A DNA stretch of 64,000 bases, from the NCBI RefSeq assembly GCF_900117445.1, contig NZ_FPEJ01000003.1, positions 62,001 through 126,000 on the forward strand. The letters are read 5' to 3'. Positions 61,543 through 64,000 of the stretch are shown one piece after another (the stretch's first letter is position 1; each line of letters opens with the position of its first letter). A program made the translations under genes and the position numbers. This stretch comes from Hyphomicrobium sp. NDB2Meth4. GTDB taxonomy: Bacteria > Pseudomonadota > Alphaproteobacteria > Rhizobiales > Hyphomicrobiaceae. Below the pieces are notes generated by a model that did not search any database, was not told the origin of the DNA, and worked only from the letters and a program-made list of their open reading frames with translations.

Positions 61543-63018
61543 ATGAGCTTCCTCTACCGCATCATTTACGCGGCCCACGCCAACGGCACGCACCACAAGC
61601 TCGCGCTCGACGCCTTGAGCTACCTTGAGGATGCAAGTGCCGAGCAGTGGCGCAACGTCTTTCTCAAGCACGCGAAGACCTATCTCGACGGCTCGAAGGC
61701 GCCCGACAACGTCTTCAAGGACTTCAAGAATCACGTCCTGCACGTGCGAGACGACTATTGGGGCGGTGCGCCGGAAAAAGCCGTCGAGTGGTATGCGACG
61801 CTGCTCGAGAAGCTGCGCGCCGAAGCCTGGGAGGAAGCGGTCCACGCCGCCGGCGTACTCAGCCATTACGTGACCGATCCGTTCCACCCCTTTCACACCG
61901 GCCAGACCGAAGCCGAGAACGCCATCCACCGTGCCTGCGAGTGGAGCATCAATCGCTCTTATGATGCGCTCGCAGCGCTCGGCCGCGAGCGATTTGCCAC
62001 GAGTGAAATCGCCATCCCGGCGAGCGCAAAATGGCTGCAGGAATTGGTCTGCCAGGGCGCCGAGACGGCGAACCGCCAATACGAGCGCCTCATTGCCCAC
62101 TATGACATTCACCGCGGCATCGCCGATCCGCCATCCGGCCTCGACGACACCGCCCGTGCCCTCGTCGCCGAACTCATCATTGAGGCGTCGAAGGCATTCG
62201 CGCGCATCCTCGACCGTGCATTCGCTGAAAGCGCGGCCAAGCCGCCGCAAGTCTCTCTCACCGCCGAAACCTTCCTCGCCACGCTGCAGATCCCGATGAA
62301 GTTCATCGAGAAAAAGCTCGCCAACGCCGAGGACCGCGCCCAGGTGCGGGCCATGTATCAGGAGCTGCAGGCGACCGGCCGCGTCGAAGCGACATTGCCG
62401 GAGGACGATCGCACCGTGCGCGACCTGCACGCGAAGGAAGTCATCGCTCCGCGCGAGCTAAAACAGGCCGCCGCCCGCGCCCAGCGCCTCGCCACCAGCA
62501 CGCCCGCGCGGCCAGCCGTCAGCCAGAAAGCGACGCCCACAACAGCGGCCGCAAAGACACCCGAAGCCGCCGAGACCCGCAGCACCCCGCGCGTGTTCCT
62601 CAAGGCATCAGATGACGTCGAAACAGCGCCATCGATCGGCACGCGCTCGGCCCAGAAGCTCGCCGAAGCGGGCATCTTCACTGTCGCCGACCTTCTCTCC
62701 GCCGATCCCGAAGCCTCCGCAACAACCCTCCGGCCGCTCGGCATCAGCGCAGCAACGCTGCGCCTGTGGCAGCAGCAGGCCCGTCTCGTGATGGACATCC
62801 CCGGACTGCGCGGAACCCACGCGCAGCTTCTTACCGGCGCAGGCTACATGGATGCCAAATCGGTCGCCGCAGCGGAAGCCGGCCTCGTATGCGCGGCCGT
62901 ACTCCGCTATGCGGCAACGTCGGAAGGACAGCGACTTTTGCGCCAGGATGGCCCGCCAGCAACCGACAAGATCGAGAGCTGGGTCGCCAGTGCCGTTGCC
63001 GCACGCGCCGCTGCGTAA
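61543..63018 (+). CDS. Zinc phospholipase C / S1-P1 nuclease-fold protein fused to a DUF4332 domain
   Basis: A 491-residue protein without signal peptide. Residues 1-260 have the helical zinc-hydrolase pattern: HHKLALDAL, then a cluster AAGVLSHYVTDPFHPFHTG with H-x3-D-x6-H spacing, and NAIHRACEW with H-x3-E. These are typical trinuclear-zinc ligands. A linker (about 315-360) rich in Ala and Thr follows. The last 120 residues read as paired helix-hairpin-helix units (IGTRSAQKLAEAGIFTVADLLS, DIPGLRGTHAQLLTGAGY), matching DUF4332, a fold often used for nucleic-acid contact. A zinc nuclease acting inside the cell is one reading. GGAG precedes the ATG. Confidence 0.8.
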   Translation: MSFLYRIIYAAHANGTHHKLALDALSYLEDASAEQWRNVFLKHAKTYLDGSKAPDNVFKDFKNHVLHVRDDYWGGAPEKAVEWYATLLEKLRAEAWEEAVHAAGVLSHYVTDPFHPFHTGQTEAENAIHRACEWSINRSYDALAALGRERFATSEIAIPASAKWLQELVCQGAETANRQYERLIAHYDIHRGIADPPSGLDDTARALVAELIIEASKAFARILDRAFAESAAKPPQVSLTAETFLATLQIPMKFIEKKLANAEDRAQVRAMYQELQATGRVEATLPEDDRTVRDLHAKEVIAPRELKQAAARAQRLATSTPARPAVSQKATPTTAAAKTPEAAETRSTPRVFLKASDDVETAPSIGTRSAQKLAEAGIFTVADLLSADPEASATTLRPLGISAATLRLWQQQARLVMDIPGLRGTHAQLLTGAGYMDAKSVAAAEAGLVCAAVLRYAATSEGQRLLRQDGPPATDKIESWVASAVAARAAA

Positions 63019-63311: not shown

Positions 63312-63404
63312 CCGTTCCGAGGGGCGCCGGCGAACCGGCTGAGATCGCGTTGATCGCGCGAGCACCCTTAGAACCTGATCCGGTTCGTACCGGCGAAGGG
63401 ACGG
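63312..63404 (+). promoter_or_regulatory. TPP riboswitch (THI element)
   Basis: The conserved core is complete: CTGAGA at 63339-63344, ACCCTT at 63364-63369, GAACCTGATC at 63371-63380, and TACCGGCGAAGGGA ending near 63401. The closing helix P1 pairs CCGTTCC (63312-63318) with GGGACGG (63398-63404), including one G-U pair. The 3' strand of P1 is also the only Shine-Dalgarno-like sequence before the ATG at 63408. Binding of thiamine diphosphate should therefore hide the ribosome site and switch translation off. Confidence 0.95.
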
Positions 63405-63407
63405 AAT

Positions 63408-64000
63408 ATGGACGCTGGCAATTTTAAGCACTTTTCTCGTGCCGTTCTGATCGTGCTCGCCCTCGCGGCGAGCGCCTTCGCGTGCCAGGCTGCCTGCCGC
63501 ACGACCAGCATCGAAAGCGCGCGCTACGTCATCTGCAGCTTTAATGCGCACGATGGCATCGAGCTGTTCCTGCGCGGCGAAAACGGCGCCCCGCTCGGCC
63601 AGTTCGAGCGCGTACGCGATACTCTGCAAAAGCGCGGCCGCACGCTGCTCTTCGCCATGAACGCCGGCATGTACCACGAGGACCGCTCACCAGTTGGGCT
63701 CTACGTCGAGGGCGGCCGCGAACTGAAGCGCCTCTCCACGGCAGATGGCCCGGGCAACTTCAGCATGAAGCCCAACGGCGTATTCTACCTCACTGAAAAA
63801 TCCGCCGGCGTCCTCGAAACGAAGGCCTTCGCGCGCCGCAAACTGAAACCGAAATTCGCGACGCAATCCGGGCCCATGCTGGTGATCGACGGCAAGCTAC
63901 ACCCACGCTTTCTCGCCGACAGCACCTCGCGCAATCGCCGCAATGGTGTCGGCGTCAAAGGCAGCGAGGTGATCTTCGCACTCGCCGATGACCCCGTCAC
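63408..64000 (+). CDS. Phosphodiester glycosidase family (DUF2233) protein, 3' partial
   Basis: The frame is open from the ATG at 63408 to the end of the window (197 codons). A signal peptide covers about residues 1-25 (LIVLALAASAFA), so the protein is periplasmic or secreted. Family motifs are LLFAMNAGMYHEDRSPVGLYVEGG, GNFSMKPNGVFYL, FATQSGPMLVIDG and SRNRRNGVGV, as in NAGPA-type phosphodiester alpha-N-acetylglucosaminidases. Its ribosome site lies inside the P1 helix of the TPP riboswitch. I know of no link between this family and thiamine; genes further right may share the control. Confidence 0.88.
   Translation, partial: MDAGNFKHFSRAVLIVLALAASAFACQAACRTTSIESARYVICSFNAHDGIELFLRGENGAPLGQFERVRDTLQKRGRTLLFAMNAGMYHEDRSPVGLYVEGGRELKRLSTADGPGNFSMKPNGVFYLTEKSAGVLETKAFARRKLKPKFATQSGPMLVIDGKLHPRFLADSTSRNRRNGVGVKGSEVIFALADDPV

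Follow-up and report, generated by a model that had tools for sequence, protein, structure and literature searches.

A TPP riboswitch stands before a NAGPA-like leader gene of thiC in one clade of Hyphomicrobium, in a slot whose occupant varies between lineages

In a 64,000-nt stretch of Hyphomicrobium sp. NDB2Meth4 DNA (hereafter, the window), a TPP riboswitch lies directly before a gene for a NAGPA/DUF2233 phosphodiester-glycosidase-like protein, and the gap between the stop codon of this gene and thiC is 4 nt, just beyond the window edge (Table 1). A translational TPP riboswitch probably governs this two-gene unit, NAGPA-thiC, with NAGPA as a lineage-specific leader in a changeable slot. 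The odd-looking riboswitch target is thereby explained, as NAGPA is the first gene of a thiC operon, an arrangement seen in a single clade. That the leader slot varies was not expected.

The riboswitch was detected with cmscan as a full-length match to RF00059 (74.9 bits, gathering score 54.3, E 6.2e-13), which was the sole Rfam match above gathering score within the window, and no second TPP match was detected in the 4.08 Mb genome among the 150 of 171 first-look candidates that were scored. The element occupies a cis position before a thiamine gene, with NAGPA first and thiC 4 nt further on. Both the predicted adjacency of a TPP aptamer and a DUF2233 gene and the simpler of two explanations originally offered for it, namely that the gene leads an operon with later thiamine genes, were borne out when the genes to the right of the window were read as had been proposed: NAGPA is complete shortly after the edge and thiC is next. 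Misassembly or a chance aptamer was ruled out by the full-length match and by the same order in relatives; that an assembly or annotation artefact joined riboswitch and NAGPA is hardly conceivable, given the identical order in six genomes and the 560-kb length of the contig that holds the window.

Table 1. Positions of the riboswitch, its parts and the neighboring genes, numbered from the first letter of the window
Feature	Position	Strand	Basis and remarks
SMP (small membrane protein), 128 aa	61045..61431	+	ORF, SMP profile; 1.9 kb upstream of riboswitch
Zn-dependent phospholipase C-like / DUF4332 (helix-hairpin-helix) gene	61543..63018	+	ORF, Pfam; between SMP and riboswitch
TPP riboswitch, RF00059	63310..63418	+	cmscan 74.9 bits, full length; spans first codons of next gene
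P1 5' strand, UUCCG	63315..63319	+	CM alignment, sequence
AAGGGA, 3' purine run of aptamer, best Shine-Dalgarno	63396..63401	+	Sequence; 6 nt before ATG
P1 3' strand, CGGAA	63402..63406	+	CM alignment, sequence
NAGPA/DUF2233 phosphodiester-glycosidase-like gene, 253 aa, 5' part	63408..64000	+	ORF, PF09992; continues to 64169 outside window
thiC, 639 aa	64174-66093 (window-equivalent, outside window)	+	ORF; PRK09284 and TIGR00190 well above cut-off

The P1 3' strand had originally been proposed to double as the ribosome site. The site does fall inside the 3' part of the aptamer, but the best Shine-Dalgarno sequence is AAGGGA, which belongs to the conserved 3' part, and the P1 3' strand (CGGAA) comes after it, separating it from the NAGPA ATG. 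The ribosome-site region, AAGGGACGGAATATG, was invariant in all six genus members having NAGPA, and its GGGA was also paired in the best RNA fold of the element. According to passages of PMC2258182, purines of this kind in TPP riboswitches can stand in for a ribosome site. The folding energy of the bare element was no better than that of shuffled sequences (z -0.98), and promoter and terminator predictions gave counts that matched shuffles. The anatomy of aptamer and ribosome site makes it a natural inference that the riboswitch acts on NAGPA translation, and the ribosome site before NAGPA together with the tight NAGPA/thiC junction suggests coupling to thiC as well. When TPP is bound, aptamer P1 and P4 would hold the AAGGGA/CGGA ribosome site, leaving NAGPA untranslated; the ThiC start lies 4 nt past, or overlaps, the NAGPA stop, and coupled translation of ThiC would drop too. 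The chemistry of NAGPA itself is presumably not a thiamine step.

In the genus, one TPP riboswitch and a thiC were present in all eight genomes, and the order TPP-NAGPA-thiC in six (locus L054 is the own locus of genome G004 and was counted once). The NAGPA ATG was equally placed relative to the aptamer in 6/6, and its stop codon lay 4 nt before thiC in four genomes, while in two the genes shared a 4-nt overlap. In the remaining two genomes (G005 and G007) thiC directly followed the riboswitch, 130-132 nt past the aptamer, and no NAGPA was found by a PF09992 profile search of either genome. In the thiC phylogeny the six NAGPA genomes grouped together as a single clade (100/96, bootstrap not settled), with G005 and G007 placed apart from them. 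NAGPA may thus be a leader of single origin, placed in a riboswitch-thiC slot open to change. The aptamer of G005 (L032) had an enlarged variable stem, with a match of 150 nt and 62 bits, and GGACCTG replaced GAACCTG in it, a substitution common to G007.

The NAGPA protein matched PF09992 (NAGPA, identical with DUF2233) over residues 81-220, scoring 69.9 bits (cut-off 25), and this was the single PF09992 match in the source genome. A structure was modelled for the L054 orthologue, which comes from Hyphomicrobium sp. isolate BWSM_147 and is 80% identical to the window protein; the 47 sequences used for it included the 197 residues encoded in the window, and the model had a mean pLDDT of 94.5. 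In a Foldseek search of the PDB, its top matches were the NAGPA catalytic domain 6pku_A (E 1.2e-10) and the bacterial DUF2233 protein 3ohg (E 2.7e-10), with a probability of 1.00; the NAGPA catalytic-domain fold is accordingly assigned on the predicted model of the orthologue. A sequence search for a PDB relative of NAGPA gave none that was credible (best E 1.7), NCBIfam held no family matching it, and a phage origin was rejected after a PHROGs search gave no match. Of the proposed secreted NAGPA-like hydrolase, the NAGPA identity was upheld by the PF09992 match and the predicted fold, and secretion is suggested by an N-terminus that resembles a signal peptide as judged by eye. Among the six genus genomes (15 pairs), dN/dS of NAGPA was 0.05-0.30, which shows that the protein is maintained and selected for itself, and is more than a passive spacer.

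The direct link was searched for beyond the genus. In the family (103 genomes), PF09992 was present in 19 and a TPP riboswitch in 87, and the direct order TPP-NAGPA was found in 6 of the 19, all from this genus, three of the 19 (G008, G074 and G090) being without a TPP match. In the order sample (397 genomes), PF09992 was present in 105, 104 of them over the family cut-off, and NAGPA stood directly behind a TPP riboswitch in 3/105 (G000, G001 and G003), again all of this genus; many of these assemblies were fragmented, and a link split between contigs would escape detection. The TPP places for the 105 genomes came from genus or family scans (6), single matches in the best-match listing (5) and further scans (92), with 2 genomes without a TPP match; the order-sample scans ran the stricter filters of Infernal, and the PF09992 and RF00059 places were joined by eye, twice. 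Outside the genus, the nearest NAGPA was that of G706, upstream of the TPP riboswitch at under 1 kb, and the next distances were 14-15 kb (G553 and G705). In the class sample, the NAGPA subfamily was found in 12/385 genomes. NAGPA as a widespread TPP target was therefore ruled out for the order sample (3/105, one genus), and the recurrent placement behind TPP riboswitches across lineages that marks a conserved thiamine-regulon gene was not seen for NAGPA. A general riboswitch-DUF2233 link, as the original prediction implied, was not found outside the genus in the family and order samples. The outcome named there as speaking against such a link largely came about: the gene is a leader before thiC in six genus genomes, and the other sampled genomes showed no direct link.

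NAGPA was nevertheless found near thiC in other lineages, in another arrangement. A contig scan for NAGPA relatives kept 80 loci, some clipped by contig ends, and thiC lay on the same strand, downstream within about 6 kb of NAGPA, in 5/80, namely the genus locus L054, L056, L060, and the Hyphomonas loci L086 and L114; G069, G706 and G309 added three NAGPA loci upstream of TPP-thiC. In all seven non-genus loci (L056, L060, L086, L114, G069, G706 and G309) NAGPA preceded the riboswitch instead of following it (1.7 kb upstream in G069), and the TPP match was over the Rfam cut-off in six, that of G309 being below it (43.5 bits). This exceeds a rough chance expectation of about 0.25 (79 loci, 12 kb around each, 4 Mb genome) and is thus more than chance, but several of the loci are related and may share an inherited gene order. 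On the NAGPA tree (96 rows), the genus clade was placed with moderate support in a larger group with G069, L056, L060, L114 and the Rhodobacteraceae (89/92, bootstrap not settled). The recurrence upstream of TPP-thiC hints at a tie to thiC not predicted by pure accident.

These loci also bear on the other explanation originally offered, periplasmic salvage of thiamine. In that case NAGPA would itself be an enzyme of the thiamine regulon, a phosphodiester glycosidase in the periplasm that, at low TPP, cleaves an external conjugate to yield thiamine or its pyrimidine. The position directly behind the riboswitch, conserved in six genomes, the fold predicted for the orthologue, the purifying selection, the repeated presence near thiC and, by eye, the signal-peptide-like N-terminus would all suit such an enzyme, and together they point weakly to a thiamine role for NAGPA. 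The direct placement in 3/105 order-sample genomes, all of one genus, argues against it, as do the other genes found in the same position (YjbR, GNAT and SMP, see below), which suggest no shared thiamine chemistry. It is further disfavored because a literature search gave no paper pairing DUF2233 with thiamin, or 'phosphodiester glycosidase' with riboswitch. Salvage by NAGPA is therefore regarded as unlikely, and NAGPA as leader of a riboswitch-governed thiC unit is preferred.

The TPP-thiC interval was surveyed in the 63 loci where aptamer and thiC could both be placed. From 38 fetched family TPP loci, L156, L159 and L160 were dropped for having no thiC; from 40 order and class loci, 24 were without thiC (probably preceding other thiamine genes), three (L190, L191 and L193) were without the aptamer core by motif, and 13 were kept. 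The aptamers were over the Rfam cut-off in 61/63, with L163 and L173 below. The interval was empty, in the sense of lacking an ORF that was at least 80 aa long and passed a composition score, in 24 loci and occupied in 39, by SMP (21), NAGPA (6), YjbR (4), GNAT (2), thioesterase/hotdog-like (2), response-regulator-like (2), DUF302 (1) and other (1) genes. SMP labels were assigned by tblastn (16) or by blastp plus profile (5; L174, L176, L177, L178 and L188), and YjbR and GNAT labels by Pfam (4/4 and 2/2); the response-regulator-like labels came from a sub-cut-off Pfam match in L154 and 27% identity to L154 in L141, and the thioesterase/hotdog-like genes (L151 and L173; mutual identity 35%) were labelled from the sequence by eye, without a supporting Pfam match, a DUF1801 match in L173 being below cut-off. 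On the thiC tree (62 rows, the short L161 omitted), the slot states needed 25 changes, against a mean of 32.2 when shuffled (bootstrap not settled), with at least 7 changes for SMP by well-supported branches and 1 for NAGPA. In family f203, GNAT acetyltransferase genes fill the slot, two in L172 (G706) and one in L186 (G644), and in both loci the final GNAT gene runs 4 nt into thiC. Upstream of TPP-thiC, L086, L114 and L173 carry varying sets of NAGPA, SMP, ArsC-like, YjbR and thioesterase-like genes, of which SMP, YjbR and thioesterase-like genes fill the slot in other loci.

An in-frame ATG or GTG lay 1-13 nt after the aptamer in 24/36 loci (21 when L144, L149 and L167 were counted from their conserved SMP starts), against about 5/36 by chance (rough arithmetic); this count is tempered by the preference of the ORF caller for upstream starts and by the shared lineage of the six NAGPA loci. 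In 10 of the 36 loci the last leader ran 4 nt into thiC, in 7 it ended 4-9 nt short of the thiC start, and in the remainder it was 19-124 nt away; leader wiring was unmeasurable in L154, L163 and L056. Since leaders in many loci start near the aptamer and end near thiC, unrelated genes are often wired alike. This could mean that the main reason for keeping a leader is to relay translation: an ORF running from the aptamer ribosome site to the thiC start, whatever its identity, would place thiC under tight riboswitch control. The close starts and the ten 4-nt overlaps speak for this, but 24/63 loci do without any leader, the start count carries the biases just given, NAGPA shows amino-acid constraint, and SMP is tied to TPP riboswitches in a way that suggests a specific role; a mere relay is a rather improbable account of the slot. 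A tentative extension, somewhat more plausible than the relay, is that the slot is exchangeable in these Alphaproteobacteria, with unrelated small genes repeatedly positioned to begin on the ribosome site of the aptamer and finish on the thiC start codon, so that they serve both as riboswitch-controlled products and in relaying the TPP signal to thiC, with NAGPA as the occupant in this genus and SMP as an uncharacterised thiamine-regulon member.

SMP was found in 36/103 family genomes (profile of 26 rows). In 32 of these 36, SMP and the TPP riboswitch shared a strand and were within 2 kb of each other; SMP followed the riboswitch directly, by at most 110 nt, in 24 and lay upstream of it in 8, the window genome included. 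The four exceptions were G008, G067, G103 and G121. The presence of thiC next to SMP-TPP was confirmed solely in the fetched loci. The linkage in 32/36 genomes suggests a specific role for SMP, and a link to thiamine is more credible for SMP than for NAGPA. Pfam matches among 26 members were to DUF2065 (5) and DUF308 (3), mostly below cut-off, so SMP has no clear Pfam family; NCBIfam held no convincing family for SMP, and a literature search gave no paper naming 'DUF2065'. G031 and G072 each carry two SMP genes in tandem behind the riboswitch, whereas in G003 and G006 SMP stood immediately before it. Other SMP family loci were L034 (8730-9119), L134, L140, L143 and L164.

A single riboswitch-gene adjacency is a poor guide to function, the gene behind the thiC riboswitch differing between close genera. 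If the exchangeable slot is real, any coupled leader ORF can transmit riboswitch control, and unrelated genes are recruitable to vitamin control in one step.

Compared with the glycosidases 3ohg and 6pku, the window protein is alike in its PF09992 match above cut-off and in the predicted orthologue fold, which matches both, whereas it belongs to an alphaproteobacterial subfamily with no PDB chain related by sequence and is encoded in an operon with thiC. TPP regulons are sorted in PMC3766115 into two functional classes, thiamin biosynthesis and transport of thiamin or its precursors. The present riboswitch, before a thiamin biosynthesis gene, resembles the class described there as dominant in most lineages, whereas the terms 'DUF2233' and 'glycosidase' are absent from the main text of that paper. 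With the translational TPP riboswitch of thiC, the system shares the RF00059 aptamer and a thiC in the presumed transcript, and the ribosome site lies within the 3' purine run of the aptamer, as in the translational TPP riboswitches treated in passages of PMC2258182; the difference is that thiC comes second here, and that it is NAGPA that owns the ribosome site inside the aptamer.
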